From positions 1-51,529 of the IMG/VR virus record IMGVR_UViG_3300042895_002727: 51,529 bases of DNA, one strand, 5' to 3'. The notes under the pieces are model-generated. The model was not told where the DNA came from. It was given only the letters and a program-made list of their open reading frames with translations, and did not search any database. A program made the position numbers and the translations under genes. This DNA comes from a virus. Shown here piece by piece: positions 24,643 through 48,288 of the stretch (position 1 is its first letter; every line of letters begins with the position of its first letter).

Positions 24643-25257
24643 ATGGATTCAGATTGGATTGATGTAGAGTCTCTTCCATTTTCAAACCCTGGAAACATAG
24701 TTATAAAAGAAAATTTTATTTCTGCGGAAAATGTAAAAAAAATATACGAATATTGCAAAAAAACAACTGAGTGGGGAACACAGAGCCCACTAGGTTCTGA
24801 CAGTATTCATACACATATTCAAATACAAAACAATTCTCCGCAGATACACCAGATACTGCAAAATTGTGTAAATGATGTTCAATATGAAATTGAATATCAT
24901 TTTGGTAGAGAACTCGAAAAAGCAAATCCAGGTTTAAGGAAATGGCATCCAGGCGAAAGACAAGACCTTCATGCTGACGGAGAAACCGCAGGTGGATGGC
25001 CTACATACAACTACATAGTTGATTATGGTTCAATTATGTATTTGAACGACAACTATGAGGGCGGAGAAATTTTTTTCCCAAAATATCACATAAAACTTAA
25101 ACCGAAACCTGGGACACTCATATTTTTCCCATCAAACAGAAATTACACTCACGGAGTTAACGAAATTATTTCTGGCGTGCGGTACACATCTGCCCATTTT
25201 TGGGTTCCAACAAAAAATAAAATGTTGGTTGACATGGCTAAAATTAATGAAATATAA
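24643..25257 (+). CDS. 2OG-Fe(II) oxygenase, prolyl-hydroxylase-like (group B)
   Basis: 204 aa. Double-stranded beta-helix with the iron triad His110-x-Asp112 (DLHADGE) and His170 (YTHGV). Arg180, ten residues later (SGVRYTS), would bind 2-oxoglutarate. YLNDNYEGGEIFFP and KPKPGTLIFFPS are the flanking strands typical of phage P4H-like enzymes. It would hydroxylate a substrate using O2, 2-oxoglutarate and Fe(II). First gene of the rightward accessory run, immediately after the FFPP-tailed FN3 gene. Confidence 0.88.
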   Translation: MDSDWIDVESLPFSNPGNIVIKENFISAENVKKIYEYCKKTTEWGTQSPLGSDSIHTHIQIQNNSPQIHQILQNCVNDVQYEIEYHFGRELEKANPGLRKWHPGERQDLHADGETAGGWPTYNYIVDYGSIMYLNDNYEGGEIFFPKYHIKLKPKPGTLIFFPSNRNYTHGVNEIISGVRYTSAHFWVPTKNKMLVDMAKINEI

Positions 25258-25996
25258 AAAAGCTTATTTTTTGCACATACCAAAAACATCCGGAATGAAG
25301 ATGCAGTACGACTTGTTAAATGCTGCTCGTAAATGCAAAAACAAAGTTAAGCCTTCTGTGTATTTGCCGGGCGAATTTGAATTTGTATTCAACCCAGATA
25401 CAGCCAAAACAAATGAAATAATCTGTGGACATTTCGGGAGAAATCCAATAGAAACAGTTAAAAACATTTTTTCATTTTCTATGATTCGTGAGCCATACGA
25501 ACAATACCTAAGCACATTAAAATACGCTGCGAGCTATACGAATCAACCGTTCACGGAAGATTTTCTTGATTTTTTTTTGACAGAGGGCAATGAAATGTTG
25601 TCTCAATTTGAGGGTATGTCCGGCTGCGAAAACCCTCAGTCTTGTTTTCTTTATTCAAAGACTTCATACCTCGCATTGCAAACTGCAAATCACGAAAAAG
25701 TTGTGTTTGTGGAAAAACCACAATCAATAGAAGATGTGATGAATAAAATTGAAAACATAATTATTGGAACTGTTGTAAATAGAGATTATTTTATCAATAT
25801 TTTAAATGCGTATTTGTATGATTTGTTTCAGATAAAAATAGAGAACAGCATTGAGATAGTAAATTCAACACCAAGACTAGATTTTAAGATAAGCAAAAAA
25901 CATAAAAATTTAATCATGTCAAAAATTTGGCTAGATTTTGAAATTTACAACATACTTTTTACTAAAGAACAAAAAAGAATTCTTGATGCACGATAA
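25247..25996 (+). CDS. Sulfotransferase-like protein
   Basis: 249 aa from the ATG at 25247, which overlaps the oxygenase stop and begins MKYKKAYFLHIPKTSG. HIPKTSG is the PAPS 5'-phosphosulfate loop of the Sulfotransfer_2 type family. FSMIREPYEQYLSTLKYA corresponds to the 3'-phosphate-binding motif (R-x-P-x-x-R/E-x-x-S). The ~100-residue C-terminus is AT-rich and poorly conserved. Likely transfers sulfate to a glycan or protein. Paralogue of the next gene. Base composition is more AT-rich than the fibre genes, suggesting separate acquisition. Confidence 0.7.
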   Translation: MKYKKAYFLHIPKTSGMKMQYDLLNAARKCKNKVKPSVYLPGEFEFVFNPDTAKTNEIICGHFGRNPIETVKNIFSFSMIREPYEQYLSTLKYAASYTNQPFTEDFLDFFLTEGNEMLSQFEGMSGCENPQSCFLYSKTSYLALQTANHEKVVFVEKPQSIEDVMNKIENIIIGTVVNRDYFINILNAYLYDLFQIKIENSIEIVNSTPRLDFKISKKHKNLIMSKIWLDFEIYNILFTKEQKRILDAR

Positions 25997-26747
25997 ATTT
26001 ATGAAGCGCTTGTACCACTTGCATATACCCAGAACTTCAGGAATGGGTATTTGCCACGCACTATGGAAAACATTTTACAATAATGGAATTGTTGATGTGT
26101 ATTTACCAGACGCACATGAATCACAGCTAATGTACGACGACGAAGGAATGAGAGACTTTCCTTTCATATCTGGACACTTTGCAAAAAATCCAATTGTTTA
26201 CAATAACGACGGCTTTGAAGTTTTCTCAATAGTCAGAGACCCAGTAGAGCATTTTGTGAGTATTGCGGCTTACGCATCAGTTGGCGCTGGTTTAAAAATG
26301 TCGAATGAATACATGGATGAGTTCATCTATGGGAACATGACACCCTTTGGGGTTAATGAGCTGTTTTCAAACTCTGGAAACATACAGTCAAAAATGTTGT
26401 TTTGCAGAATTGCATTTGTTGACAAGTCTCTTGTGTCGCTTAGTAATGACGATGTTCGGAATGATGAAAATATTGTTTTTATAGAAAATGACATGCCGGA
26501 CGAAGATGGGATAAAAGAGTTAATTGAATATATGAACTTGTTTTCGCTTCCTAAAAGATTAGAGGCAATTAGCTGGCTTGAGCAAAAATTAAAAAAATCA
26601 CATGGTTTTTCTTTGGATAAATCAATTTATAACACATTAAATTGTTCAAATAAAAATGGATTCAAACCAGATAAAAGCCACATAAAAGAAATAAAACGAC
26701 GTTCTGAGATAGACCAATATTTGTATGATTTGGTGCAGAAACGGTAA
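25986..26747 (+). CDS. Sulfotransferase-like protein, paralogue
   Basis: 253 aa from 25986; the ATG at 26001 (MKRLYHLHIPRTSG) is equally plausible and aligns better with the upstream paralogue. HIPRTSG is the PAPS loop with Arg replacing Lys. FPFISGHFAKNP matches the paralogue's IICGHFGRNP. FSIVRDPVEHFVSIAAYA is the 3'-phosphate motif. The Lys-to-Arg change in the loop could alter activity. Tandem duplication with the previous gene, overlapping by 11 bases. Confidence 0.68.
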   Translation: MHDKFMKRLYHLHIPRTSGMGICHALWKTFYNNGIVDVYLPDAHESQLMYDDEGMRDFPFISGHFAKNPIVYNNDGFEVFSIVRDPVEHFVSIAAYASVGAGLKMSNEYMDEFIYGNMTPFGVNELFSNSGNIQSKMLFCRIAFVDKSLVSLSNDDVRNDENIVFIENDMPDEDGIKELIEYMNLFSLPKRLEAISWLEQKLKKSHGFSLDKSIYNTLNCSNKNGFKPDKSHIKEIKRRSEIDQYLYDLVQKR

Positions 26748-26752
26748 TTTGG

Positions 26753-26758
26753 TAGTCT
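26753..26758 (+). promoter_or_regulatory. Possible leaderless -10 (TAGTCT)
   Basis: TAGTCT seven bases before the ATG at 26766; no ribosome site is present between them. Confidence 0.35.
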
Positions 26759-26765
26759 TGTTGAC

Positions 26766-27395
26766 ATGTCGGCAATTGAAAATTCACCATGGGAAATACC
26801 ACCGGGCCATTTTGGTAGCGGTCCAGAAAATATTCATATAATCGAAAATTTTATAGACCAAGAAGACCTAAACAAAATACAAAATTTTTGCCCAACTATA
26901 AACGAGTGGAACAATGAAGCAGAAAGCGTTTACTCGGAAGATGGAACATGTTTGTACAACGCTGATTATTGGAATGATAGACAGTGCAGCAGCGAAATCA
27001 TTCTTAGACTAAATCCTGATGTCCATAAAATAATAGATAAATATATACATAAAATGAAGAACACAATTGAAAATATTTTCAATGTACAGGTATCAGTCCG
27101 ACCACCCGTGATAATGAAGTGGCGACCCGGGATAGAGCAACGCCCGCATGCAGACAAACAGCTCAATGATGGAAGACCAAACGCTTTTGTAAATTACGAT
27201 ATAAACTCGTTATTTTATTACAACGATGATTTTGACGGTGGCGAACTTTATTATCCGCAACACGAAATCAGCGTTAAACCAAGACCAGGTTTAGCAGTAA
27301 TACACCCAGGAGATGTTAATTATTTGCATGGTGTGACCATGATTGAAAAAGGCTACAGGTATACAACGCCATCTTTTTATACTGTGGAGAAGTGA
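26766..27395 (+). CDS. 2OG-Fe(II) oxygenase, prolyl-hydroxylase-like (group B)
   Basis: 209 aa. Iron triad His128, Asp130 (RPHADKQ) and His188 (YLHGV), with Arg198 ten residues on (GYRYTTPSF). MKWRPGIEQRPHAD aligns with KWHPGERQDLHAD of the enzyme at 24643, showing these two are paralogues. YYNDDFDGGELYYP is the strand after the HxD. Stop and next start abut (TGA-GTG). Confidence 0.88.
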   Translation: MSAIENSPWEIPPGHFGSGPENIHIIENFIDQEDLNKIQNFCPTINEWNNEAESVYSEDGTCLYNADYWNDRQCSSEIILRLNPDVHKIIDKYIHKMKNTIENIFNVQVSVRPPVIMKWRPGIEQRPHADKQLNDGRPNAFVNYDINSLFYYNDDFDGGELYYPQHEISVKPRPGLAVIHPGDVNYLHGVTMIEKGYRYTTPSFYTVEK

Positions 27396-27929
27396 GTGAA
27401 AATATTCTATGAATTTAATTTTATTTCCGAGAAAGAACGCTCGTTAATTATTGAATTTGTAAATAAATATCCAGAAGTTGAAAATCACGCAAAAGACGAT
27501 GATTGCGTAAGGTATTACAGTAGTGATTATATTTTGTGTTTAGACGATTTTGTCTACGGTATTCTTTTTTCTATTTCCGAAAGGGTGCGAATTGCTGCTG
27601 AGGAAATGTTCGGTTTGAGTCTTGATTCCTGTGTGCCAAATTTGTTCAAAACGGAGGTCGGCCACAAACCGGAAGAGCATGCAGACAATGTCAACATGGA
27701 TGGCTCCCACAAGGATGGCTGTTCAAATTTTGTTGTTTCTTCGATTGTTTACTTTAATGATGATTTTTTAGGAGGAGAACTAGTTTTTCCAAAATTATCT
27801 ATTTCATACAAACCAATTGCTCGTAGCTGCGTGCTTTTCCCAAGCGGAATCGATTATTCGCACTATGTGGATAATGTAAAAAACGGCTATCGCTTGGTGT
27901 TGCCGCTCTGGTTTGAGGGTGTAGGATGA
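27396..27929 (+). CDS. 2OG-Fe(II) oxygenase, short group B member
   Basis: 177 aa from a GTG directly after the previous TGA, with GGAGAAG in the upstream coding end. Triad His95, Asp97 (EEHADNV) and His156 (DYSHYV), with Arg166 (GYRLVLPLW). YFNDDFLGGELVFP is the conserved strand. Shorter than its neighbours at the N-terminus but with a full catalytic core. Confidence 0.85.
   Translation: MKIFYEFNFISEKERSLIIEFVNKYPEVENHAKDDDCVRYYSSDYILCLDDFVYGILFSISERVRIAAEEMFGLSLDSCVPNLFKTEVGHKPEEHADNVNMDGSHKDGCSNFVVSSIVYFNDDFLGGELVFPKLSISYKPIARSCVLFPSGIDYSHYVDNVKNGYRLVLPLWFEGVG
27922..27927 (+). promoter_or_regulatory. Possible -10 (TAGGAT) or ribosome site
   Basis: TAGGAT six bases before the ATG at 27934 fits the leaderless pattern, but the AGGA inside it is also a usable Shine-Dalgarno at seven bases, so its role is ambiguous. 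Confidence 0.25.
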
Positions 27930-27933
27930 TTTC

Positions 27934-28668
27934 ATGAAAAACATTGAAGTAGAATATGTTGGCGACCCCAAAGCAGGTTTTCTAGTTTACAGAAATGTGC
28001 TTAGCGAGGATTTGAGAATCCCAGAGCGCCTCGAGGCGACTGTTGGGGGAAGCAGTACGCCACCATACTCATGGATGCAGGCGCTGGTTGGCGATGGTGA
28101 AGTAATGAAGGACTACAGAGATTGCGTGGACTGTAAAATAAGTCCAACACATCTTGAAAATTGTCCATCAGAATTTTCTGAATTAATAAATATATACAAC
28201 GATACCGTATATGGATTAACAGCCTGCCTTCAAGATTACGAAGCAAGATACAACTTGCGCATGGATTTTATGGAGGCAATTAATTATGTTAGATACAGGG
28301 AGGGGCAGCACTTCAGCATACACGCTGACCATGGTTTTTCTTACATATGCACAGTGTCTTCGGTTATGTATTTAAATGACGATTACGAGGGTGGAGAATT
28401 ATGGTTCCCATACCTTGACATAAAGTTCAAACCAACTTATGGCGACATAGTGATGTTCCCATCTACATACATTTATGCTCATGCATCTCTGCCTGTAACG
28501 AGGGGTACCAAATACGCAGCAGTTACAATGTTTGACTACAATGACAGATTCCATAAAATGTGGAAAGGTTACGGCAAAGACCTTGACGGGGAAAAAGCAA
28601 CATACGATAAGTCAAATGTTTTTTCAACATCTAGCGACATTGGGGAAAGGTTTATTTTTAAAAAATGA
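27934..28668 (+). CDS. Prolyl 4-hydroxylase-like 2OG oxygenase (group A, Lys type)
   Basis: 244 aa. Triad His130, Asp132 (SIHADHGF) and His183 (YAHASL). The 2-oxoglutarate residue, ten after the distal His, is Lys193 (GTKYAAV) rather than Arg. Authentic collagen-type and algal prolyl 4-hydroxylases have the same H-x9-K arrangement. Group A hallmarks are YRDCVDCK at ~61-68 and YLNDDYEGGELWFP. A ~45-residue C-terminal extension is unique to this copy. ATGA overlap with the DUF6065 gene that follows. Paralogues at 40038 and 41535 have the same type of partner. Confidence 0.88.
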   Translation: MKNIEVEYVGDPKAGFLVYRNVLSEDLRIPERLEATVGGSSTPPYSWMQALVGDGEVMKDYRDCVDCKISPTHLENCPSEFSELINIYNDTVYGLTACLQDYEARYNLRMDFMEAINYVRYREGQHFSIHADHGFSYICTVSSVMYLNDDYEGGELWFPYLDIKFKPTYGDIVMFPSTYIYAHASLPVTRGTKYAAVTMFDYNDRFHKMWKGYGKDLDGEKATYDKSNVFSTSSDIGERFIFKK

Positions 28669-29366
28669 CAAAGTTATTCCTTAAAAAAATGCACTCGAAA
28701 CCACCTGTTATAGAACAGTCTCGTATTAAAAGAGACTGGATGGATAACACCTACAATAAACACGCTTATCAGTGCCTGCCAATGACTGTTGCAAACGTCT
28801 ACGGATGGGAATTGCAAATGGAGGAAGACCTTGTTGTCCAGTGGGATGGAGGAAATACTCCTCCCGTTATTCTTTCTGGCGAGATATCTTCATCCGGTCG
28901 CGTTCAGGCTACATCTTCAATAATAGGAATGATTTCCATCCATATGGGGTGGGTCATTAATACTGAAGAAGGTTACAACACGTGGTTTTCAGGCTCTCCA
29001 AACTATTTTGTAGATGGAGCAATACCGCTCACTGCGACAATACCCAGCTACTGGTGGCCGGATGAATCTCAAATGAACTGGAAAATAACAAAAATTGGAG
29101 AGCCTGTAGTTTTTGAAGCAGGAAGTCCATTTTGTTTTTTTAATATTTACGATAATTCAATTCTGGAAAACACCGAAGTTATTGTTTCAAATTTCTGGGA
29201 CGATGCCGAGCTGGTGGATTCTAGAATGAAATATGGTGAACTCAAGGCGCGAAATGGTATTGAAAAACCATGGACTTGGACCAAAGGGATTCGTACAGGT
29301 CTTGACGCTGACGATAATCGGATAGGGCCGACATTCACTGGTCTGCCGAAATTGGCCAATCCGTAG
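28665..29366 (+). CDS. DUF6065-type protein
   Basis: 233 aa. IKRDWMDNTYNKHAYQCLPMTVAN and GWELQMEEDLVVQWDGG match the opening of the DUF6065 family found in phages and bacteria; function unknown. The homologous protein at 42197-42901 shares VKRDWMDETSGNHAYRCFPVTQAN. Overlaps the group-A hydroxylase by four bases. A beta-sandwich or cupin-like fold is likely from the strand pattern. The repeated pairing suggests it recognises or presents the hydroxylase substrate, which is inference. Confidence 0.7.
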   Translation: MTKLFLKKMHSKPPVIEQSRIKRDWMDNTYNKHAYQCLPMTVANVYGWELQMEEDLVVQWDGGNTPPVILSGEISSSGRVQATSSIIGMISIHMGWVINTEEGYNTWFSGSPNYFVDGAIPLTATIPSYWWPDESQMNWKITKIGEPVVFEAGSPFCFFNIYDNSILENTEVIVSNFWDDAELVDSRMKYGELKARNGIEKPWTWTKGIRTGLDADDNRIGPTFTGLPKLANP

Positions 29367-29411
29367 TGTAGAATATGGGTACTTGTCCAACGTACGGATT
29401 ACGGAGCAGCC

Positions 29412-29648
29412 ATGAAATTTGAATCTTCTTTTACAACTCAGGAAAAAAAGCTTGTTTATCAGCGCACCCTGAAGGACATTGAGAGACAGCTTATGGAGAG
29501 ACTGCTCCAAGAAGGTTTCGACCCAGACACGTTTGATGATGTCAACTTCACCCCAGGTATGGACTCAAACGGCATTATTCATGGCCACAAATTGATTGCT
29601 GATTTTATCTCAAAGATTAACAACATCAAGTTAAGAATTGCTGAGTAA
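29412..29648 (+). CDS. Small helical protein, unknown
   Basis: 78 aa with GGAG upstream. Helical charged N-terminus (TTQEKKLVYQRTLKDIERQLMERLLQ) and a short acidic loop (DPDTFDDV). No family recognised. First of four small tandem genes. Confidence 0.5.
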   Translation: MKFESSFTTQEKKLVYQRTLKDIERQLMERLLQEGFDPDTFDDVNFTPGMDSNGIIHGHKLIADFISKINNIKLRIAE

Positions 29649-29651
29649 GCT
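29646..29651 (+). promoter_or_regulatory. Possible leaderless -10 (TAAGCT)
   Basis: TAAGCT begins on the upstream gene's TAA stop and is followed by six bases and the ATG at 29658; no Shine-Dalgarno. Confidence 0.35.
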
Positions 29652-29657
29652 TCCAAC

Positions 29658-29891
29658 ATGGCACTAACACCAGAACAATTGGCAAAGGCCAAGGCTGAAG
29701 CAATTCAGATACTCGAATACTCAATATACACGCTTGCTTTTGTTCTTGGTGTGGAAGATGATGACCTAGAGGCTGGTATGGAAAACCCAGTTGACCTTTC
29801 GGTAAACGAAAACACTGCATTGCTTGCACAGTACGATGCATACGAATGTTTGAAACTTCAATTGGCGGCGCTGGCAAGACTCCGGGATTAG
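29658..29891 (+). CDS. Small helical protein, unknown
   Basis: 77 aa, predicted as two long helices (TPEQLAKAKAEAIQILEYSIYTLAFVL and NTALLAQYDAYECLKLQLAAL) separated by an acidic loop. No known family. Confidence 0.5.
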   Translation: MALTPEQLAKAKAEAIQILEYSIYTLAFVLGVEDDDLEAGMENPVDLSVNENTALLAQYDAYECLKLQLAALARLRD

Positions 29892-29900
29892 TGGGCGGTT

Positions 29901-30209
29901 ATGAAAATAGCTCCAAAAATACCACGGAAGATTTCAATAGTCGAAATTGCACTAAATTCTGGGAGGTATGAAATATGCCCAGATATGGACCCGGATTATC
30001 CATTCATCCAAGAACCAATGCAAAACCCGAATAGGGATAGCCAAGTTCCTCGCTGGAATCCAGCGCTTTTATCCTTTGAACTCCCAGATGGAGCTGCCTT
30101 TTTTTGCGACCTACTCCAGTCAAATGACCCACAGAGAAAATGGGAAGAAACAGAACCTGGAGACTTCACCCGTAACGAATTAGTGGAGGAAATAGCAAAT
30201 GAGAACTAG
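29901..30209 (+). CDS. Small protein, unknown
   Basis: 102 aa. Opens ISIVEIALNSGRYEICPDMDPDYPFI and ends in a charged helix (NELVEEIANEN). Contains no metal or nucleotide motif I can name. Overlaps the next gene by 11 bases. Confidence 0.5.
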   Translation: MKIAPKIPRKISIVEIALNSGRYEICPDMDPDYPFIQEPMQNPNRDSQVPRWNPALLSFELPDGAAFFCDLLQSNDPQRKWEETEPGDFTRNELVEEIANEN

Positions 30210-30519
30210 GGAAAGTGGCGGAGCAAACTTGTACGACGCCGAAAAAGACGCCAAAAGAAATGAACAAAAACTTGCGGTCATATGTTTTATTACAGACCAA
30301 GACCCAAGCGACATTGATTCAATGAGGATTGATTACGCAGCTGTAAAAATACGCCAGCTCTGGAAGTACAGCAGTGACATTAGGGGAGGCGCAAGCGCTG
30401 ATTATACGTCTAATTCAATACCAAGATTTTTGGCAAAAATAAATGTAAAGATGACAAGTATTGCACGAGAGGCATACTGGAACTACAAGTTGGCAAAGGC
30501 GTCTGAAAATGGACAATAG
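30199..30519 (+). CDS. Small charged protein, unknown
   Basis: 106 aa, Lys/Asp/Arg-rich helix at the N-terminus (YDAEKDAKRNEQKL). FITDQDPSDIDSMRIDYAA and a helical end (TSIAREAYWNYKLAKA) follow. Overlaps the methyltransferase-like gene. Confidence 0.5.
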   Translation: MRTRESGGANLYDAEKDAKRNEQKLAVICFITDQDPSDIDSMRIDYAAVKIRQLWKYSSDIRGGASADYTSNSIPRFLAKINVKMTSIAREAYWNYKLAKASENGQ

Positions 30520-31270
30520 GTGGCTACGTACTGCAATGGTTACGCATCTGTTGAGTAATACTCCCATGCAGCGTGTTCTGGGGACGGAATCATCCTGGGA
30601 AGATATAACTAACGAGGTCTTTGAGTCAGCGCAAAAAGCAATTGATTGGCGAGCATCCTTGAACTTGAATATGTCAATCGCATCCAGGGGTACTTCGGAG
30701 GGGGTTTGGTATATGGATTTGCTCCTAAACCCACAGACTGGGTGGAGAGAGATAATGGCAAACATGCATAACTCGGTTGAGTTGTTTATGTCTGTCAAGA
30801 ATCCAGAAAAAATACTGTTTTTTAGTCCGGATTTGTGGAGTTCGCAATTCATAGAATTCTCTAAGAGAAAAAACATCAGCATAAATTTTGTTAACAATCA
30901 ATCTCTTTATAATTTTGAAACTTTTCTACGTGACCACTCCATGAGTATCGGTTCGGAAAGCCTTAGAGATACAAGTTATGGCGTTGTCGAGCCAGACGAG
31001 ATAGGCGACGGAGAGGCTTCCGGTTTTGACCTAATTCAAGTTATGGGCTGGGATGTTGCTTACGATATAGAGTTGCTTGAAAAATGCATTGGCTCCCTGT
31101 CTTCTGGCGGTGTGCTGCTGATAAACTCAACAAACAATTCCGGGAAGATTTACAGAGACGATTACAACCTGCACCCACTAAGTGATTTACACGAAGTGCT
31201 AAAGTTTTCAAATGGAAGCACATTTCACAACTCTGAAAGTTACGGATACACGGCTTTCGTTAAGGACTAA
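30509..31270 (+). CDS. Methyltransferase-like Rossmann protein
   Basis: 253 aa from the ATG at 30509 (MDNRWLRTAMV), which overlaps the previous stop. The second half has the shape of a class I methyltransferase C-terminal part: FDLIQVMGWDVAYDIELLEKCIGSLSSGGVLLINSTNNSG. Glycine motif I is not clear and the N-terminal half is divergent, so activity is uncertain. An O-methyltransferase for a small substrate is one option. Adjacent to the AspH-like gene, separated by one base. Confidence 0.45.
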   Translation: MDNRWLRTAMVTHLLSNTPMQRVLGTESSWEDITNEVFESAQKAIDWRASLNLNMSIASRGTSEGVWYMDLLLNPQTGWREIMANMHNSVELFMSVKNPEKILFFSPDLWSSQFIEFSKRKNISINFVNNQSLYNFETFLRDHSMSIGSESLRDTSYGVVEPDEIGDGEASGFDLIQVMGWDVAYDIELLEKCIGSLSSGGVLLINSTNNSGKIYRDDYNLHPLSDLHEVLKFSNGSTFHNSESYGYTAFVKD

Positions 31271-31271
31271 A

Positions 31272-31967
31272 ATGTCAATGGAGCCAGCATTCTGGGATGA
31301 TATTATTAGGGAAATCCCCGTATGCGTGGAGATTGAAAAAAATTGGCTCTCTATAAAAGACGAATTTAATTCCTATATGGAACATAGCCACCCATTCCCA
31401 ACCAGGGGTGGCGGCAACACTCTTGCGTCGCCAAAGCTCAAGATAAAATCAAACGAAAAAGAAGAAGAAGAAGAAATAGACCTTTATTCAGGGGTGTGGG
31501 ATGTTTGTTTTGCTGGGACAAGACCAAGCGCAGATAGCAGGCAGTGGGGAAATACCGAACTGCTGGGTAGCGTGGTTAAGTGGAAGACAAAAAAAGACCT
31601 AGAGGCACATCTTGATTACTCAAGTTCTTATTTTAAGACATTTAATTCAATAGTCTCAGAGTTTGCAGATGATGGACAGTGTTCTGGCGGAATGTTCAGC
31701 ATAGTGAAACCAGGGGCAATAATTAATCCACACAATGGTTCTGACAAAATAATGAGATGTCACTTATGCATTGTAAACGATAAACAATGCAAAATTACCG
31801 TTGGAAATGAGACCAGGACATGGGATGAGGGGAAAATTCTTGCGTTCAAGGATGGCCCGCCATACAGGCACTCTGTAATACACGAAGGAACAAATGACAG
31901 GGTGGTTTTAATATTTGATTTTGACCTAGAGTATCTACGCGATACGGTTGGTAGTGGGTACCTGTGA
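31272..31967 (+). CDS. Aspartyl/asparaginyl beta-hydroxylase-like oxygenase
   Basis: 231 aa from the ATG at 31272 after AAGGA. Strong match to the AspH catalytic domain: INPHNGSDKIMRCHLCIV (His154, Arg162), GNETRTWDEGKILAF and YRHSVIHEG (His200), then DRVVLIFDFD (Arg210). AspH enzymes bind Fe(II) with two His and no carboxylate, as here, and hydroxylate Asp/Asn in EGF-like or similar domains using 2-oxoglutarate. Residues ~62-71 are a run of acidic amino acids. Distinct lineage from the P4H-like neighbours. The stop overlaps the desaturase start (GTGA). Confidence 0.85.
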   Translation: MSMEPAFWDDIIREIPVCVEIEKNWLSIKDEFNSYMEHSHPFPTRGGGNTLASPKLKIKSNEKEEEEEIDLYSGVWDVCFAGTRPSADSRQWGNTELLGSVVKWKTKKDLEAHLDYSSSYFKTFNSIVSEFADDGQCSGGMFSIVKPGAIINPHNGSDKIMRCHLCIVNDKQCKITVGNETRTWDEGKILAFKDGPPYRHSVIHEGTNDRVVLIFDFDLEYLRDTVGSGYL

Positions 31968-32788: not shown

Positions 32789-33456
32789 AAATTTACGATG
32801 ACGCCATAGATGAGACTGTTTATTCAGCAATCATCCAGGATGCATCATTTTTCCCTGGTCCAATGACAGCTGATTCACGCATTGCTAGCGAGCTCAACTC
32901 TTATCATGATGAAAAATCCAGCTGCTATGCACCTTATATGTTTTGGCATGGTTGGTGGTCTTCTTCGGCCAACACACTTAGGAAGCAAGTCATTAGGGAG
33001 ATATGGGAAACCAATCTACCAATGCCGATAAGTGAAGTTCTTGGATTTGAGTACTGGACAAGAACATTTGGGGCTGGACAGTTTCTTGGACCCCATGTTG
33101 ATGAAGACACTTTTCTTTATCAGGATAAAAAAATATACAACGGGCCTGAAGTTGGGTGTGTCTATTACGGCCCATCAAAAGAAAAAGTGGTTGGTGGGTT
33201 TCTTGAGCTTTTTGAATCAAAGCTTGTCTTTGGTGAGCACAATGCGCTTGAATGGGAAAATTTGAAAAAACATATTGACCCGATTGAGATGCGAGAGCGA
33301 ATTGCCTTTAGAGAAAATCGATTGGTTATATTTGATGCAGGTCGGGTTGTGCATCAAACTAGCCCTTGTTTGTATGGGGTTAGAAATGTAATGGTTGTCA
33401 ATGTGTGGCTGAAATCAAACCCACCAGTAGATATGTCCAACTTTGTATATGAGTAA
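32785..33456 (+). CDS. 2OG-Fe(II) oxygenase, divergent
   Basis: 223 aa. His104-Val-Asp106 (GPHVDED), His190 (VVHQTSP) and Arg200 (YGVRNVMVVNVW), spaced like the others. A ~45-residue insertion between strand IV and the distal His (YGPSKEKVVGGFLELF...) distinguishes it. N-terminus MKIYDDAIDETVYSAII. Not closely related to groups A-C in this window. Confidence 0.8.
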   Translation: MKIYDDAIDETVYSAIIQDASFFPGPMTADSRIASELNSYHDEKSSCYAPYMFWHGWWSSSANTLRKQVIREIWETNLPMPISEVLGFEYWTRTFGAGQFLGPHVDEDTFLYQDKKIYNGPEVGCVYYGPSKEKVVGGFLELFESKLVFGEHNALEWENLKKHIDPIEMRERIAFRENRLVIFDAGRVVHQTSPCLYGVRNVMVVNVWLKSNPPVDMSNFVYE

Positions 33457-34093
33457 AATAAATACTATTCCTTTAATAAATCAAAACATATTTACATCGC
33501 AGCTTTTGGACATAGACAATGAACAGATTGTGTCCGATATAAACTTATACGGTTTTCCAGTTAATGCAGATTGCGAAGAATATGGCTCAGTAAGTCGTGG
33601 TTTTGTGCAGTATGAAGATACAGTTGTTCCAGTAACACCTGAATTCACAAAACTTGAAAAATTAATTGTTCAAATTGTTGACGAAGTAACAAATCGTAAA
33701 TACAAAATTGATGAAATATGGGCGATAAAATTAATGCCTGGGCAGAGTGTGATAGCTCACAGTCATTACAAAAACCATCACACACACCCTGGTGACTATT
33801 TTTCTATTGCTTACTACCCATCTGCCCCACTTGATTCTGCGGATTTAATTTTTTCAGCGCACTGGTGTGGTTATATGCACAACACTATTTCTGTTAAGCC
33901 GCAAGATGGACTGTTGATTATTTTTAACTCATTTATTACCCACATGACAGCACGGCAAATGATTGAAAGTCCAAGGATTGTTGTAAGCATGAATCTTAGC
34001 CCAATTGAACCCAGAGTAAACCCAAATGCAGATTGGGGAATATACACGGATAGACCAATCATAGAATCTCCGGTGGTTAAAAAAACTGACTAA
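33449..34093 (+). CDS. 2OG-Fe(II) oxygenase-like (TIGR02466-type)
   Basis: 214 aa from the ATG at 33449. A cupin-like core with IAHSHYKNHHTHPGDYFSIAYYP, SAHWCGYMHNTISV and DGLLIIFNSFITHMT (His165), then SPRIVVSMNL (Arg176), follows the TIGR02466 family. The histidine-rich loop (104-113) makes the exact iron ligands uncertain, and a canonical H-x-D is not obvious. Possible substrate hydroxylase, or a degenerate member. Confidence 0.6.
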   Translation: MSKINTIPLINQNIFTSQLLDIDNEQIVSDINLYGFPVNADCEEYGSVSRGFVQYEDTVVPVTPEFTKLEKLIVQIVDEVTNRKYKIDEIWAIKLMPGQSVIAHSHYKNHHTHPGDYFSIAYYPSAPLDSADLIFSAHWCGYMHNTISVKPQDGLLIIFNSFITHMTARQMIESPRIVVSMNLSPIEPRVNPNADWGIYTDRPIIESPVVKKTD

Positions 34094-34096
34094 CAT
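34091..34096 (+). promoter_or_regulatory. Probable leaderless -10 (TAACAT)
   Basis: TAACAT, overlapping the upstream TAA stop, six bases before the ATG at 34103; same hexamer and spacing as at 1095-1107. Confidence 0.45.
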
Positions 34097-34102
34097 ACTG
34101 AC

Positions 34103-36587: not shown

Positions 36588-37126
36588 AAAAGTCTTTTAA
36601 ATCTTGTTCGGTTTAAAGCTTTTGCTGACTCTGCAACAATTTCTACTTTCCATATTCCGTCAACGAATAGTGATTCAATCACTTTTGCTGACTTCCACAG
36701 ACCTGAAAGATATAAATTTCTTTTGTCCTCTCCTCCACCTTGGTCATAACCAAGCGGATAGCCTCGGAAAAGAGCCTCCACATAATTAATCCCGCCAGAT
36801 TCCGCTATTGATGCAATATTCAGTTCTGATTCTAGACCGTGGAGATTGTTGCCGTCTACATATATTCCTGTAAATGCGTACTTCTTTGCCAGCTCTATTG
36901 TTTCCTCTGCAACTCCACCTCTGCCGATGCAAATGAAAATGTCTACTGAGCCAAATAGTTCTTTAACCGACTCGTGTTCTATGGCATCTTTTATTTTTCT
37001 GCCTGCGGCAACTGTCGTTTCAGAACGACCTTCTGATGTCCAGTGGACAATATGCCCAGAATTAATAACGCTGTGAGCAATTGTCACACCCATATTGCCA
37101 AGAGATACTATTCCAACCTTACTCAA
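36584..37126 (-). CDS. Truncated NAD(P)-binding dehydrogenase-like protein
   Basis: 180 aa. VGIVSLGNMGVTIAHSVINSGHIVHW is the Rossmann dinucleotide-binding start of 3-hydroxyisobutyrate/6-phosphogluconate dehydrogenase-type enzymes. VDIFICIGRGGVAEETIEL and GIYVDGNNLHG continue the fold. Such enzymes are usually ~290 aa with a helical C-terminal domain, so this chain is about a hundred residues short. It may bind NAD(P)H only. Last gene of the leftward operon; overlaps the upstream stop by 8 bases. Confidence 0.6.
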   Translation of the reverse strand: MSKVGIVSLGNMGVTIAHSVINSGHIVHWTSEGRSETTVAAGRKIKDAIEHESVKELFGSVDIFICIGRGGVAEETIELAKKYAFTGIYVDGNNLHGLESELNIASIAESGGINYVEALFRGYPLGYDQGGGEDKRNLYLSGLWKSAKVIESLFVDGIWKVEIVAESAKALNRTRFKRLF

Positions 37127-38090
37127 CTGATTCAGCTTTCATGTTCAACGGATTAATGTAACCATTTTTGCCCTCAAGATTTCTTACGAGTGTTTTGCTG
37201 TCACCTGGGTTAACTGAGGACGCGTACTTTTGGTAGTCATCGTAAATCGTATCAATCCAGTGCGGAACGCACCAGCTGGAAACCTCATCCTCTTCCGAGA
37301 CTTCTATCCTTGCGTTTGGGTCAGGGCTTCCTTGCGAAAAGAATTCAAGATAGGCGTACCTTGTTCCGCCGGTGACGGTGTTTACCCCGTGCGAAGCAAT
37401 GTAATTTGTTGGGAATATTATGATGTCCCCACGCTTTGCCATATGGCTAATTCCAAGGTATGGGAAGTAGAGCTCCCCTCCAGAGTAATTCGTTCCGTCT
37501 AATTCGTCCGGAGTGGCAACGCAGTCATTTATATACAGCAAGACGGCAACTGTCTGCCTGGCTCCAAGCTGACCATAGGGGATGTACCTCTCCCCGTTCG
37601 TGGCTCTATAGTTTGTGTCGTTGTCGTTGTGTAGTCCCAGGTACTTTCCAGAGTCGTACCTCAGAACGTGTCCCCTGCTTCTCCACCATATAGTCCCAAC
37701 CACGAGTGGAAACATATCCACATACCGTATTAGAGACTTGTATATGCAGTCTTCCCAGTTTCTGAACACGGATACAATTTCTTCTTCTGTATGGTCCTGG
37801 ACCGGCTCAAGAACTCTTACAGGGACTCTCTCCACTTGCTCGATAGAGAACTTATTCCCATCTTCGTTCTTTGCGTAGACTACGCCATTTATGTCGATGT
37901 CGTACTTCCATCTTTGCTGGTGTGCTGCAAGAGCATTTTTGTCAATCCAATTCGACATGGTTTCTAGGTCAACGTCGACTGCATTATGAAATACAATCAC
38001 ACCTCCACCAAGGTCCGTGAATTCAAGATTCGATATTTCTTCTATAACCTCATCCGTGACTTCAAGTGTCCTGGTCTCATATCGTTTCAA
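37119..38090 (-). CDS. 2OG-Fe(II) oxygenase, group C (inverted)
   Basis: 323 aa. Tag LGGGVIVFHNAV; triad His154, Asp156 (GLHNDND) and His234 (ASHGVNT), with Arg244 (GTRYAYLEFF). The core GARQTVAVLLYINDCVATPDELDGTNYSGGELYFPYL is nearly the same as in the next copy, so the two are a recent pair. The C-terminal tail is longer than in the rightward copies. 14-base overlap with the following gene on this strand. Confidence 0.85.
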   Translation of the reverse strand: MKRYETRTLEVTDEVIEEISNLEFTDLGGGVIVFHNAVDVDLETMSNWIDKNALAAHQQRWKYDIDINGVVYAKNEDGNKFSIEQVERVPVRVLEPVQDHTEEEIVSVFRNWEDCIYKSLIRYVDMFPLVVGTIWWRSRGHVLRYDSGKYLGLHNDNDTNYRATNGERYIPYGQLGARQTVAVLLYINDCVATPDELDGTNYSGGELYFPYLGISHMAKRGDIIIFPTNYIASHGVNTVTGGTRYAYLEFFSQGSPDPNARIEVSEEDEVSSWCVPHWIDTIYDDYQKYASSVNPGDSKTLVRNLEGKNGYINPLNMKAESVE

Positions 38091-39075: not shown

Positions 39076-39077
39076 AA

Positions 39078-39701: not shown

Positions 39702-39997
39702 ATCTTTACCCCGTTTATTTCGATGTTTGCGTATTTGCCGATTTCTACAAATCCAGCAAGAGATTTGCCTACTGACTCAAATTGACACAGAAAGTCGACG
39801 CTCATTGGTATGTCTGTGTGGCCGCAAATCTTCACTGTCATGGACTCGTCAGAGGTGCTGATTAGAGCATCTGAAAATTCCACGATTCCCCTGTCATGTG
39901 AAATTGAGCCAGAACCATCGTCATTCAAACGCAGGTTATATGTCTCTTTTCCCAGGGGCGAGGTTGCGGTTATGAACCATGTTCCTATTAATTCCAT
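39698..39997 (-). CDS. Lipocalin-like beta-barrel protein
   Basis: 99 aa. MELIGTWFITATSPLGKETYNLRLNDDGSG, then SMTVKICGHTDIPMSVDFLCQFESVG and a closing strand EIGKYANIEINGVK, fit a small bacterial beta-barrel family (G-T-W-x(4)-S-P-x-G ... L-x-F-x-G). The ligand is unknown. First gene of the leftward operon that includes the GPx-like protein and two oxygenases. The start is six bases after a TAGCAT and has no ribosome site. Confidence 0.55.
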   Translation of the reverse strand: MELIGTWFITATSPLGKETYNLRLNDDGSGSISHDRGIVEFSDALISTSDESMTVKICGHTDIPMSVDFLCQFESVGKSLAGFVEIGKYANIEINGVKI

Positions 39998-40003
39998 GTA
40001 ACG

Positions 40004-40009
40004 ATGCTA
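40004..40009 (-). promoter_or_regulatory. Probable leaderless -10 (TAGCAT)
   Basis: TAGCAT six bases before the minus-strand ATG at 39997, in the 40-bp divergent gap shared with 40026-40031. Confidence 0.45.
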
Positions 40010-40025
40010 GCACCGAGCCTGACTA

Positions 40026-40031
40026 TAAGAT
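40026..40031 (+). promoter_or_regulatory. Probable leaderless -10 (TAAGAT)
   Basis: TAAGAT six bases before the plus-strand ATG at 40038. With 40004-40009 it forms a back-to-back promoter pair whose -10 elements are 16 bases apart. Confidence 0.45.
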
Positions 40032-40037
40032 ACATGT

Positions 40038-40751
40038 ATGAGTATTTATGATGAAAACGCAATTCCATGGTTCACAAAAGACAGGTCAGAGACTGCGTCA
40101 AATAGAATCCATCGAGCTGCCAGTGAAACAATTACAGCCCAAAATCCAGCACTAGGATTAAACATATACCAAAATACTTTTTCGCTTGAAGATTCAAATA
40201 GATACATCAAGATTCTTGAGTCAAATTTGTCCGGGAACAAAAAATACAGCTGGAACGAAGCCCAGGTAACAAATTCTAATATTCCGATAAAAAAAGCAAG
40301 AGACTGTTACGATTTCAAATACAAGCAAGAAAATCTAGGACCAAGAGACGAGCACAACTCCGAGCTTCTGGACCTTCATCAAGAGATATATGAAAAACTC
40401 AAGTTTTGCATTGATGACTATGCTAGATACTGGGGTATAAGTGTTGTTTACTATGAAGCTTTCAACTTCGTAAAATACGATGGCGAGGGTAAGCATTTCA
40501 ATATACATGCAGACCATGGACCGGCATACAATTGCACTGTTTCTGCCGTCATCTACATCAACGACGATTATGAGGGTGGAGAAATTGAATTCCCAAGACT
40601 TGACGGTTATGTGCACAAACCAAAAGTTGGGGATATTGCAATTTTTCCATCAAATTATATTTACGAGCATGCGTCACTTCCAATAAAATCTGGCATAAAG
40701 TACTGTGTAGTAGTCATGACCGACATAAATAAGCTAGGGCATAAACAATGA
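40038..40751 (+). CDS. Prolyl 4-hydroxylase-like 2OG oxygenase (group A, Lys type)
   Basis: 237 aa. Triad His157, Asp159 (NIHADHGP) and His211 (YEHASL). Lys221 (GIKYCVV), ten residues after the distal His, is the prolyl-4-hydroxylase type 2-oxoglutarate ligand. The group A hallmark RDCYDFKYK is at ~89-96, and YINDDYEGGEIEFP follows. A unique ~30-residue N-terminal extension precedes the core. Overlaps the next gene, a DUF6065-like protein, by four bases; it opens the rightward operon from the divergent promoter. Confidence 0.88.
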   Translation: MSIYDENAIPWFTKDRSETASNRIHRAASETITAQNPALGLNIYQNTFSLEDSNRYIKILESNLSGNKKYSWNEAQVTNSNIPIKKARDCYDFKYKQENLGPRDEHNSELLDLHQEIYEKLKFCIDDYARYWGISVVYYEAFNFVKYDGEGKHFNIHADHGPAYNCTVSAVIYINDDYEGGEIEFPRLDGYVHKPKVGDIAIFPSNYIYEHASLPIKSGIKYCVVVMTDINKLGHKQ

Positions 40752-41524
40752 GCGAGCAATACAACATCGCAATATTCAGACCACATAGACCATGGCTGGA
40801 CAAAGAAAATAAATACGCCCCATCAGCAGCACAAAGCGCCGCTCCACAATGGTATAAAGATGCTGACAGTTTTGAAAAAAATCTAAACGGGGAATACCGT
40901 AAAGCAACAAAAGAAATTTGTCCATTTCCAAAAGAAGGAACAACAGACGATTACGGTAAAATTCCGACATGGAAAGCCTGTCCTGCTATTCTGGACGCCT
41001 TTTTAACCGGATATGTTTTTAAAACTCCTTGCGACTTGACATTTTACAAAAACACTCAAGGTTTAATTGACGTCAAGGTAGAAAATAGTCAGTATAAAAA
41101 CTTCTGCACGCCAAGAACGCCGATGCCGGATTTCGTACATCCACAGGGTTATTACGACCACCATTTTGCATGGTTTGCTGACTGGGGCATAGAACTCCCA
41201 GAAGGTTATAGTGCCTTGTTTATGACGCCGATGAATAGGTTTGACCTTCCATTCTTGAACACAACAGGAATCGTTGACTCAGATAAGGTTCATTTACTGG
41301 GAAGTTTTCCGTTTTTCCTCATTGAGGGCTGGGAGGGCGTAATACCTGCTGGGACTCCCTATCTCCAGATTTTCCCGTTCAAAAGAGAAGACTGGGAACA
41401 CAAAGTGGAAATGTTGGGACAAGAAGAAATGCAGTCCAAATACATGAACAATGCAAGATTTTACCGCCAGCCCGATGGTGGGGTTTACAAAAACAAAATT
41501 TGGTCAAGAAGAAAATACAAGTAG
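40748..41524 (+). CDS. DUF6065-like phage protein
   Basis: 258 aa. Order of motifs: RPWLDKENKYAPSAAQSAAPQWYKD, TWKACPAILDAFLTGYVFKTPCDLTF, WGIELPEGYSALFMTPMNRFDLPF, TGIVDSDKVHLLGSFPFFL and VIPAGTPYLQIFPFKRE. This is a recurrent architecture in marine and freshwater phages, related to DUF6065; biochemical role unknown. It is longer and more divergent than the members at 28665 and 42197. Like them, it directly follows a group A hydroxylase with an ATGA overlap. Confidence 0.65.
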   Translation: MSEQYNIAIFRPHRPWLDKENKYAPSAAQSAAPQWYKDADSFEKNLNGEYRKATKEICPFPKEGTTDDYGKIPTWKACPAILDAFLTGYVFKTPCDLTFYKNTQGLIDVKVENSQYKNFCTPRTPMPDFVHPQGYYDHHFAWFADWGIELPEGYSALFMTPMNRFDLPFLNTTGIVDSDKVHLLGSFPFFLIEGWEGVIPAGTPYLQIFPFKREDWEHKVEMLGQEEMQSKYMNNARFYRQPDGGVYKNKIWSRRKYK

Positions 41525-41534
41525 GGCATTTCAA

Positions 41535-42200
41535 ATGCAAACATGGACAGAAAAAATCGATTTTGGGCATGGCATAAAGTGTTACAGAAATATAATCAAA
41601 TCGAGTTTTGATGTTATCAATAGAATTGAATCGAACCTAAAACCAGTCGGCGATACAACTGGTTATAGTTGGCAGCCAGCATATGTTGGATACCAAGAAT
41701 TAGTGCCAGAGTACAGAGACTGTGTTGATTTTAAATTTAAAAAAACAGATATTGAACACGACAAAAGCACTGTTAGCTTGAATTTACAATCGCTTTGGCA
41801 GGACATTTATGATTCCGCACTTCCGGCCGTCAGAGACTATCGCTCCGAACACAACATAGCGTCCCTCAAGTATTGGGAAGCAATGAATTTTGTTAAGTAT
41901 GGCCCAGGTCAGCACTTCAAAGAACACCAAGACCACGGATTCTCATATAACTGCACGGTCTCGTTGGTTGGATATGTCAACGACGATTACGAAGGCGGAG
42001 AGCTATTTTTTAGACTGCAAAATTTAAAAATAAAACCACAGGCAGGAGACCTTTATGTATTTCCGTCAAACTACATGTACCCACATCAAGCCATGCCGGT
42101 GACCGCAGGGACAAAGTACTCAATCGTAACCATGCTTGATTACAGCAAAAAATATCATACGCCAGATATGTACGACAGGAAATGGAATGATGAGAAATGA
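41535..42200 (+). CDS. Prolyl 4-hydroxylase-like 2OG oxygenase (group A, Lys type)
   Basis: 221 aa from the ATG at 41535 (MQTWTEKIDFGHG). Triad His131, Asp133 (EHQDHGFS) and His184 (YPHQAM), with Lys194 (GTKYSIV). RDCVDFKFKK at 61-70 and YVNDDYEGGELFFR mark group A. The shortest member, being just the catalytic core. Overlaps a DUF6065 gene by four bases, the same arrangement as at 27934. Confidence 0.88.
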   Translation: MQTWTEKIDFGHGIKCYRNIIKSSFDVINRIESNLKPVGDTTGYSWQPAYVGYQELVPEYRDCVDFKFKKTDIEHDKSTVSLNLQSLWQDIYDSALPAVRDYRSEHNIASLKYWEAMNFVKYGPGQHFKEHQDHGFSYNCTVSLVGYVNDDYEGGELFFRLQNLKIKPQAGDLYVFPSNYMYPHQAMPVTAGTKYSIVTMLDYSKKYHTPDMYDRKWNDEK

Positions 42201-42901
42201 TTGAAATTTCTGTTGAAAAAACAAACGGTTCAATTTTTGAAATCTCTCAGATGTCCGTAAAAAGAGACTGGATGGACGAAACATCAGGGAACCATGCGTA
42301 TAGGTGCTTCCCGGTCACGCAGGCGAATGTGGTCGGGTGGAGCCTCTCCTGTAAAGAAGACATAGTTTTCACATGGGACGGAATCAACGACCAGACCCCA
42401 GACCATATAAAAATAACAAGCCCTATTGATGCATATGCTGGCAGGGGTCAGTCTTCGATAAGTTTAAACACCGGACTAATTTTTAGAACCGCCGAAGACA
42501 TAAGTCTTTGGACAATCAATCCAGTCAATTATTTTAATAATGATTTTGAGACAATGTCCAACTTTATTAGCACGTCATTTTATGACCACCCGATACCTCT
42601 GGCAATAAAAGCAAAAAATGCCAATGCGGAGACACGAATAATAGCTGGAACACCAATTGCCACAATAATCCCTATATCGCTAACTGCTTTAAATAATTCG
42701 TCAATAAATATCACAACTTATTCGGACCCAGAAAACACAAGACTTAAAGCAAATTCGAGCTATGGGTACGCAGCGCAAAAACTTAATCGAGCTGGAGAGT
42801 TCACCGACTGGTACAGGGATGCAGTAAACGAGAAGAACGAATCCATAGGTTCGCACGAAGCAAAAGTGTTAAGATTATATGTGAATGACACAACAAAATA
42901 A
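42197..42901 (+). CDS. DUF6065-type protein
   Basis: 234 aa. VKRDWMDETSGNHAYRCFPVTQAN and GWSLSCKEDIVFTWDGIND are the family signature; close relative of the protein at 28665-29366. The middle ISLNTGLIFRT and PVNYF match that paralogue's MGWVIN and PNYF. C-terminal half divergent. Function unknown; coupled to the group A hydroxylase before it. Confidence 0.7.
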   Translation: MIEISVEKTNGSIFEISQMSVKRDWMDETSGNHAYRCFPVTQANVVGWSLSCKEDIVFTWDGINDQTPDHIKITSPIDAYAGRGQSSISLNTGLIFRTAEDISLWTINPVNYFNNDFETMSNFISTSFYDHPIPLAIKAKNANAETRIIAGTPIATIIPISLTALNNSSINITTYSDPENTRLKANSSYGYAAQKLNRAGEFTDWYRDAVNEKNESIGSHEAKVLRLYVNDTTK

Positions 42902-42930
42902 AAAATTATATAACAGTGTAAGAATTTGAA

Positions 42931-43623
42931 ATGTGGAATAAAAACATATTTCAAACATATGAGTGCGACTTTGAAGAACTTCATGAATCTTTCAAAAAAT
43001 GCTGCAACTTATGGAAAAACACATATCCAGATTGGAAATATTGTTTTAAAAACCCCAAAGAAAGACGCGAAGAAGTAATAAATATTTTATGCCTATCTCC
43101 AATTGAGGCCGAAATATATGACAATTATTCAGGAATGACTCAATCGGATATCTGGAGATATTCTGTGACCTGTTTTTACGGCGGCATGTATGCGGATTTG
43201 GATTCAATTCCAATATTAAATATAGAGCCAATACTTCATGAATTAAACCACACAATAGAAATGGTTGCCTTGCCAAATGGGGACCAAGTAAATGGGCTTC
43301 CTGGGTCCAACAATTGTAATTTTATTCTTAAATTACATAGTGAAATAGGTCTTAGTCTTTTAGCTGACGTAAAAAAACATTTTGAAGAAAATGAAGAAAG
43401 ACTCAAAAATAATGCAAAACCAAAAAAAACACCTACACATCACTTATTTAGAAAAACAGTTGCTTCTAACAGGTCTAAAGTGGCGCAGATATTCGACCAG
43501 CGATATGTCACTCATAGCAGAGACTACAAGCCAGATACAGATTATAGGCTTAGAAATGAAAAACAAATGAATCATAGTTATTTTGTTGAGGAATATTGTG
43601 ACTGTTTGTGGTGTCGCCAATGA
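42931..43623 (+). CDS. GT32-like (DXD sugar-binding) glycosyltransferase
   Basis: 230 aa. QSDIWRYSVTCFYGGMYADLDSIPI contains the donor-binding DxD (Asp89-Leu-Asp91) and the S-D-x-x-R-Y-x-x-x-x-x-x-G-G-x-Y pattern of Gly_transf_sug/OCH1-type enzymes. NLWKNTYPDWKYCF upstream is the acceptor-side motif. A free-standing small enzyme with a Cys-rich C-terminus (CDCLWC). Could add a sugar to a hydroxylated residue or a glycan; inference from neighbours. Confidence 0.8.
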   Translation: MWNKNIFQTYECDFEELHESFKKCCNLWKNTYPDWKYCFKNPKERREEVINILCLSPIEAEIYDNYSGMTQSDIWRYSVTCFYGGMYADLDSIPILNIEPILHELNHTIEMVALPNGDQVNGLPGSNNCNFILKLHSEIGLSLLADVKKHFEENEERLKNNAKPKKTPTHHLFRKTVASNRSKVAQIFDQRYVTHSRDYKPDTDYRLRNEKQMNHSYFVEEYCDCLWCRQ

Positions 43624-44279
43624 TTGAGAACTTTCTGCTTCAACTCAAGTTGAATAATCTGGAATTTGAAGAAATTACCGACGAGTTGATTCGGATTAAA
43701 AATTTCATAACACAGGAAGAGCTAGATGCGATAACTAGTGCAATAGAGAACACTACGCAAAAAGATTGGGAAACCCACTACATGTCTGGTGTTGTTAATT
43801 TTTGCAAGCTCAAGTTTGGAAGAACCGATATTGACAACTTGATTGCAGAGGGAAAATTTGAAATCACCCATGGTTTTTCAGACAAGACACTAGGTATTGA
43901 GCATCTTGGTGTTTGTCGCTCTATTCATCGCCGCTTGTCATCAATGATACTTGAATGCGACCAATCTCTAACTCTTAGCGGTTTATCAACCGTGCAAAGA
44001 TTGCCACCCGGCACGGAATTGAAATCACATGTTGACCAACATACTGACCCGTCAATCAGGTATGCCTCAATACTATATATAAACGATGATTACAATTCTG
44101 GGGAGATTTTCTTCAAGAATCGTGAAATTGCCTTGAAACCAAATCCAAAAGACCTTTTATTTTTCCCTGGCAACAGCGAGTACGAACATGGGGTAAAGAC
44201 TGTTTCTGATGGACCAGTGAGGTATGTTGTAGTTGGTTTCGTAAAAGAAATAGGTTTTTACGAAAGAAACAGGTATTAA
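43620..44279 (+). CDS. 2OG-Fe(II) oxygenase, group B relative
   Basis: 219 aa from the ATG at 43620 (ATGA overlap with the GT32 gene). Triad His137, Asp139 (KSHVDQH) and His190 (YEHGV), with Arg201 (GPVRYVVVGF), one residue further than in the other copies. YINDDYNSGEIFFKN is the conserved strand. It is translationally coupled to a glycosyltransferase, so a hydroxylate-then-glycosylate step on one substrate is attractive but unproven. Confidence 0.83.
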   Translation: MIENFLLQLKLNNLEFEEITDELIRIKNFITQEELDAITSAIENTTQKDWETHYMSGVVNFCKLKFGRTDIDNLIAEGKFEITHGFSDKTLGIEHLGVCRSIHRRLSSMILECDQSLTLSGLSTVQRLPPGTELKSHVDQHTDPSIRYASILYINDDYNSGEIFFKNREIALKPNPKDLLFFPGNSEYEHGVKTVSDGPVRYVVVGFVKEIGFYERNRY

Positions 44280-46716: not shown

Positions 46717-46760
46717 TTTTAAATCTCCTTATTATTAAGTGAAAAGTTTATCATTTTTAT

Positions 46761-48287: not shown

Positions 48288-48288
48288 A

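Follow-up and report, generated by a model that had tools for sequence, protein, structure and literature searches.

A conserved 2-oxoglutarate oxygenase island in the tail gene cluster of large, predicted actinobacterial myoviruses

A 51.5-kb viral DNA fragment from IMG/VR (IMGVR_UViG_3300042895_002727; we call its whole length the window) carries a dense run of 2-oxoglutarate/Fe(II) (2OG) oxygenase genes at positions 24643-44279, and the locus raises the question of what a virus might do with so many such enzymes. Aquatic viromes are rich in phage 2OG oxygenases, and a literature search found no established substrate for any of them. We find that the oxygenases of this island form conserved modules within a tail gene cluster, and that some of them are coupled or fused to partners. 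Tentatively (with a probability of roughly 0.45), we propose that the island is a cassette whose enzymes, of the prolyl/lysyl-hydroxylase class, hydroxylate proteins of the tail or virion, which are then decorated. New here are the conserved island in actinophages, the way in which its oxygenases go with partners, and the pairing and predicted fold of DUF6065. A cassette that is embedded among tail genes, with paired or fused partners, turns a vague idea of auxiliary metabolism into a specific test on hydroxylated or decorated tail proteins.

Oxygenase genes of the island and their conservation

A Pfam scan of the translations identified 15 intact 2OG oxygenase genes (Table 1; we refer to genes by their first coordinate). 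Eleven exceed the cut-off for PF13640 (24643, 27396, 27934, 34103, 34960, 35847, 37119, 38077, 40038, 41451, and 43608, with 37119 and 38077 on the reverse strand). Another two, 26766 and 32785, fall about 3 bits short of it (24.4 and 24.2 bits versus a cut-off of 27, E about 6e-5). Gene 33443 is over the cut-off for PF13759, with a TIGR02466 match below cut-off, and 31212 matches PF05118 (Asp_Arg_Hydrox, 6e-23). Thus 13 of the 15 are over a Pfam cut-off and two are slightly under, all with E ≤ 7e-5; PF13640 alone finds 12 genes when the window is scanned. PADLOC returned only a generic 2OG model. The original prediction, made from the sequence without database searches, was of about 15 non-haem iron oxygenase genes, with about ten profile matches as its floor, and the 15 matches bear it out. 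Its description of the active sites was exact: 13 of the enzymes have H-x-D, and an Arg or Lys follows the distal His at +10 in twelve of these and at +11 (Arg) in 43608. The remaining two are the TIGR02466-like 33443 (H-x-H, Arg at +11) and the AspH-like 31212 (H-x-G, Arg at +10).

The ligand and distal Arg/Lys positions are 97-100% conserved in the 15 families, with one His-to-Gln change and a few gaps (16-237 homologues per family, from IMG/VR). The ratio of nonsynonymous to synonymous substitution rates (dN/dS) was 0.02-0.23 in all cases that allowed an estimate, and dS had reached saturation in several genes. Because the ligands are conserved and dN/dS is low, we conclude that these oxygenase genes are real and under purifying selection. 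They include two groups of paralogues, group A (34103, 34960, 35847, 37119, and 38077) and group B (27934, 40038, and 41451); the others are loosely related.

Searches with groups A and B returned hundreds of relatives. PF13640 genes were present in all 49 related IMG/VR records (1-14 each), and related loci of at least 15 kb (n = 83) had a median of 11 oxygenase genes, with ten or more in 53 of them. Loci found by group A alone gave the same median (range 5-15). With dozens of related viruses sharing it, the block is no isolated case, and its oxygenase count in the window, though at the upper end of what the lineage shows, is not unique. As the comparison records were chosen by similarity to groups A and B, they show a wide spread of the block within this lineage of viruses and not among phages in general. 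Outside the lineage, cultured cyanophages have up to 13 PF13640 genes per genome, mostly dispersed. The Synechococcus cyanophage S-SCSM1 has 24 2OG oxygenases, versus 1-5 in most cultured T4-like cyanophages (PMC9602691), and seven of its 2OG genes lie within about 9 kb around tail fibre genes. Kyanoviridae cyanophages such as S-SCSM1 therefore resemble our virus in having many divergent 2OG oxygenases per phage, partly clustered beside tail fibre genes, but they are another lineage with another host, and there most of the genes are scattered (13 PF13640 matches over 229 kb). The original prediction took such density in one phage to be exceptional, a claim that it made dependent on similar blocks being rare among phages; given the related records and S-SCSM1, that claim fails.

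The order of genes in the island is conserved as well. It runs from an fn3/tail protein through 24643, the sulfotransferase-like genes, 26766, 27396, group B, DUF6065, and four small open reading frames (ORFs) to 30461, and on through 32785, 33443, the group A genes, and a reverse-strand arm to fn3/baseplate-side genes. A homologue of a tail protein from the window lies in the flank of 76 of the 83 loci, and in 33 an oxygenase directly adjoins it. The small ORFs (29412-30519) are kept in mid-island in 58-97 loci each, at identities down to about 20-30%, and 29901 is the most conserved. The baseplate-side protein 46764 had no match in INPHARED. A contig filed as a Verrucomicrobiales metagenome-assembled genome (L307) has the same oxygenase-DUF6065 block, along with three genes that by eye look TauD-like; it probably stems from a phage of this type and was misbinned.

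The neighbouring genes named by the original prediction were identified as a glycosyltransferase (42931, PF04488), a desaturase (31964, PF00487), a glutathione peroxidase (GPx)-like protein (39078, PF00255), and a sulfotransferase-like protein (25229). The last has only a weak PHROG match (6e-6), and its HIPKTSG motif is conserved. In L094/L043 and L044, a sulfotransferase-like domain is fused to a 26766-type oxygenase, the fused domain being a homologue of 25229 in L094 and L043, and in L129 a homologue of the NAD-binding protein 36584 is fused to a group A oxygenase. The GPx-like protein is probably not a peroxidase, judging from its alignment: it has Thr at the position of the peroxidatic Cys/Sec, where 38 of 100 aligned homologues have Cys. 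(A second GPx-family protein, at 1107-1994 and outside the island, scores 31.6 bits against PF00255 and retains the Cys in the expected motif.) A dedicated modification island, as originally suggested, is supported by the shared gene order and its fixed place in the tail cluster, by the intact active sites under purifying selection, and by the fusions of oxygenases to tailoring domains.

Pairing of group B oxygenases with DUF6065

Each of the three group B genes in the window is directly followed by a DUF6065-type gene (27934 by 28665, 40038 by 40748, and 41451 by 42197), with overlapping ends. Across all of the loci that we fetched, a group B gene is directly upstream, on the same strand, of 83 of 107 DUF6065 genes (non-redundant at 90%), most often with a gap of −1 or −4 bases. 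In the loci that were fetched by DUF6065 itself, group B is upstream in 23 of 29 cases, versus 0.71 expected from the other genes of the same loci, and none of 100,000 random draws gave more than 6; as these loci are related, the comparison is descriptive and not a strict probability. For the 40748 family, group B is upstream in 27 of 38 cases, many of them in loci fetched via group B or 40748. No fusion of group B and DUF6065 into a single protein was found, and bacterial copies of DUF6065 in Pseudoroseomonas (L308) and Rhizobium have no oxygenase neighbour.

Two of the three partners, 28665 (148.7 bits) and 42197 (87.1 bits), are members of DUF6065 (PF19541, cut-off 26.6). The third, 40748, has no Pfam match, and hhalign aligns it to DUF6065 with a probability of 96.5. 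DUF6065 had no match in INPHARED records, and a literature search found nothing on it; this uncharacterised family now gains a predicted fold and a probable partner.

A dUTPase-like fold is predicted for DUF6065 and, weakly, for 40748, its distant relative. An AlphaFold2 model of DUF6065 was built from 46 sequences (mean predicted local distance difference test score, or pLDDT, of 92.7). When it was compared to the PDB with Foldseek, the best 50 matches listed were all dUTPases (best E 1.7e-5, probability 1.0). Against a viral library, unnamed relatives came first, followed by dUTP diphosphatases. Query TM-scores with dUTPases were 0.34-0.43 and target TM-scores 0.50-0.71, at a root-mean-square deviation (rmsd) of mostly 5-8 Angstrom, and because of the low query scores and high rmsd we consider the shared core to be partial. 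The model of 40748 (pLDDT 90.4) gave weak matches to dUTPases and dCTP deaminases (best E 4e-3). Sequence searches of the PDB with the DUF6065 and 40748 profiles found nothing credible. The likeness to the dUTPase/dCTP deaminase superfamily stops short of its sequence profile: in 14 related genomes nothing matched PF00692, and we take the DUF6065 family to have moved out of the catalytic dUTPase profile.

It is conceivable, if doubtful, that group B and DUF6065 work together as a hydroxylase of a new, two-component kind. The dUTPase-fold protein would not itself be catalytic but would present a protein loop or a nucleotide-linked group as substrate, and the pair would be one of several partner-specific modules for the chemical customising of tails.

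Possible functions of the island

What do the oxygenases modify? For a pooled profile of 14 oxygenase sequences, the nearest solved relatives were PiuC (PKHD-type), prolyl 4- and 3-hydroxylases, LH3, and PHD2, with Tet-like structures in only 2 of 57. The likeness to PiuC and to bacterial prolyl 4-hydroxylases (PF13640/P4Hc) extends to the HxD...H triad and the Lys/Arg 2OG anchor, but the island enzymes are remotely similar to these and have many paralogues in one cluster. Group B best matches bacterial prolyl 4-hydroxylase and also the hydroxylase domain of the procollagen lysyl hydroxylase/glycosyltransferase LH3, which offers a precedent for hydroxylating and then decorating; in the island, in contrast, these would be the tasks of separate genes.

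Given the profile similarity to protein hydroxylases, the fixed location in the tail cluster, and the tailoring domains seen in fusions, the explanation that we favour above any other is hydroxylation of tail proteins with subsequent decoration. In this reading, large actinobacterial myoviruses keep a conserved cassette for post-translational modification among their tail genes. With Fe(II), O2, and 2-oxoglutarate, the oxygenases, which are of the PKHD/prolyl-hydroxylase class, would hydroxylate amino-acid side chains in proteins of the phage, and the fn3-type tail-fibre proteins at the flanks are the likeliest targets. Partners encoded beside or fused to particular oxygenases would then bind or decorate the hydroxylated product. 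Specifically, the new hydroxyl would receive groups from the sulfotransferase-like and glycosyltransferase proteins and may be oxidised by the NAD-binding protein, and the part of DUF6065 may be to present the substrate to group B. The literature search found nothing on prolyl hydroxylation of phage tails. The fn3 proteins 23392 and 44797 are the first and second most proline-rich ORFs of at least 200 amino acids in the 172.5-kb genome from which the window comes. A further fn3 protein is encoded at 14241.

Several points weigh against this proposal. As fn3 domains are commonly proline-rich, the composition of the flanking proteins is a weak hint. No collagen-like G-X-Y substrate, as LH3 would have, was found in the 172.5-kb genome (a single 6-unit Gly-rich run, in an unrelated protein, was rejected). 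Similarity to PKHD enzymes does not fix a protein substrate, and the fusions are known from few contigs. From its predicted dUTPase-like fold, one would expect DUF6065 to have had a nucleotide ligand at least in its ancestors. The section on the S-SCSM1 virion proteome reports no hydroxylated residues and names no 2OG oxygenase. The conserved catalytic residues, purifying selection, fixed synteny in the tail region, pairings, and fusions are directly supported, whereas catalysis, the protein substrate, and the order of the steps are what we infer from them.

The glycosyltransferase, sulfotransferase-like, and desaturase genes of the island would also suit a remodelling of host or virion surface glycans and lipids (by hydroxylation, sulfation, glycosylation, and desaturation) that blocks superinfection or alters the envelope. 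There is another glycosyltransferase gene at 5991-7088, and the AspH-like 31212 has sub-threshold similarity to the lipid hydroxylases OlsC and LpxO. Still, this seems unlikely because most of the oxygenases are closest in profile to protein hydroxylases, because the island is fixed within the tail cluster and not among surface-synthesis genes, and because the desaturase and AspH-like genes are missing from many related islands. If DUF6065 binds nucleotides, group B might instead hydroxylate a nucleotide or base that is bound by it. Besides the dUTPase matches of the DUF6065 model, some oxygenases have weak Tet_JBP similarity. Homologues of 40748 in haloarchaeal tailed viruses (Hafunaviridae; L313, L314, and L315) lie at the edge of the tail genes near genes for thymidylate synthase or ribonucleotide reductase, which makes a nucleotide-linked role conceivable. 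Nevertheless, modification of nucleotides or DNA is improbable, as the query TM-score is only about 0.4, the 40748 model matches weakly, PF00692 is unmatched, and the island lies among tail genes with no base-modification enzymes recognised in it.

An effect on metabolism has been suggested for cyanophages, in which many oxygenases use up 2-oxoglutarate and thereby shift nitrogen signalling in the host (PMC9602691, PMC6359870). This is very unlikely here because depletion of 2-oxoglutarate would not call for some dozen divergent paralogues, each conserved in its own right, in a fixed order and with paired partners. Also, the cyanobacterial NtcA-type argument is not known to apply to an actinobacterial host. 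Least probable is that the island is a biosynthetic cluster that makes a modified peptide or a small molecule, for which the small ORFs at 29412-30519 would supply the precursor or carrier: the four ORFs are retained in the island core and the full genome has TauD-type genes, but the ORFs have no obvious precursor-peptide pattern, and no synthetase or transporter was recognised.

The virus, its genome, and other genes

Over its full length, the window matches positions 27303-78831 (reversed) of G002 at 99.995-100% identity; G002, an IMG/VR record of 172,519 bases from an uncultivated virus, is the source genome. A near-identity search of INPHARED for the window found no match. G002 has three WhiB genes, a PF04860 portal, and a terminase that is most identical (about 42-43%) to those of Methanothermobacter and Gordonia phages. 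Among the 12 related records longer than 130 kb, 11 have at least one WhiB gene. WhiB has been used as a marker confined to actinobacteria and their phages (PMC6802176). From the three WhiB genes and the terminase, we assign the G002 lineage to large myoviruses with a predicted actinobacterial host; a label of T4-like cyanophage, after the phages that the original prediction drew on for comparison, does not fit.

Table 1. Features of the island and its flanks in the window
Position	Strand	Feature	Evidence
23392..24633	+	fn3 tail-type protein, island flank; candidate substrate	proline content, synteny
24643..25257	+	2OG oxygenase	PF13640
25229..25996	+	sulfotransferase-like protein	HIPKTSG motif; weak PHROG match 6e-6
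25938..26747	+	second sulfotransferase-like protein	HIPRTSG motif, synteny
26766..27395	+	2OG oxygenase	PF13640 just below cut-off
27396..27929	+	2OG oxygenase	PF13640
27934..28668	+	group B 2OG oxygenase, first oxygenase-DUF6065 pair	PF13640
28665..29366	+	DUF6065 protein, predicted dUTPase-like fold; start overlaps 27934 stop	PF19541
29412..30519	+	four small conserved ORFs, island core	homologues in related loci
30461..31270	+	conserved island protein, possibly S-adenosylmethionine-methyltransferase-like; no Pfam match	
31212..31967	+	AspH-like 2OG oxygenase	PF05118
31964..32788	+	fatty-acid-desaturase family protein	PF00487
32785..33456	+	2OG oxygenase, triad invariant	PF13640 below cut-off
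33443..34093	+	TIGR02466/PF13759-type 2OG oxygenase	PF13759
34103..34963	+	group A 2OG oxygenase	PF13640
34960..35850	+	group A 2OG oxygenase	PF13640
35847..36587	+	group A 2OG oxygenase	PF13640
36584..37126	-	NAD-binding (6-phosphogluconate-dehydrogenase-like) protein	
37119..38090	-	group A 2OG oxygenase	PF13640
38077..39117	-	group A 2OG oxygenase	PF13640
39078..39701	-	glutathione-peroxidase-fold protein without peroxidatic Cys	PF00255
40038..40751	+	group B 2OG oxygenase, second pair	PF13640
40748..41524	+	phrog_7084 protein, remote DUF6065 relative	profile comparison
41451..42200	+	group B 2OG oxygenase, third pair	PF13640
42197..42901	+	DUF6065 protein	PF19541
42931..43623	+	DXD-type glycosyltransferase	PF04488
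43608..44279	+	2OG oxygenase, Arg at +11	PF13640
44797..45732	-	fn3 protein, other island flank; candidate substrate	proline content
45739..50045	-	tail/baseplate genes, right flank	

Outside the island, G002 encodes at least three more 2OG oxygenases, two TauD-type and one AspH-type (L291:7717-8562, L292:5677-6477, and L292:10382-10915). A NodU-type carbamoyltransferase (L291:10693-12126) is encoded near a TauD-type oxygenase gene. Elsewhere in G002 (L285:12917-15391), ParB-like, PAPS-reductase-like, and second ParB-like ORFs are consecutive, as judged by eye from the translation.

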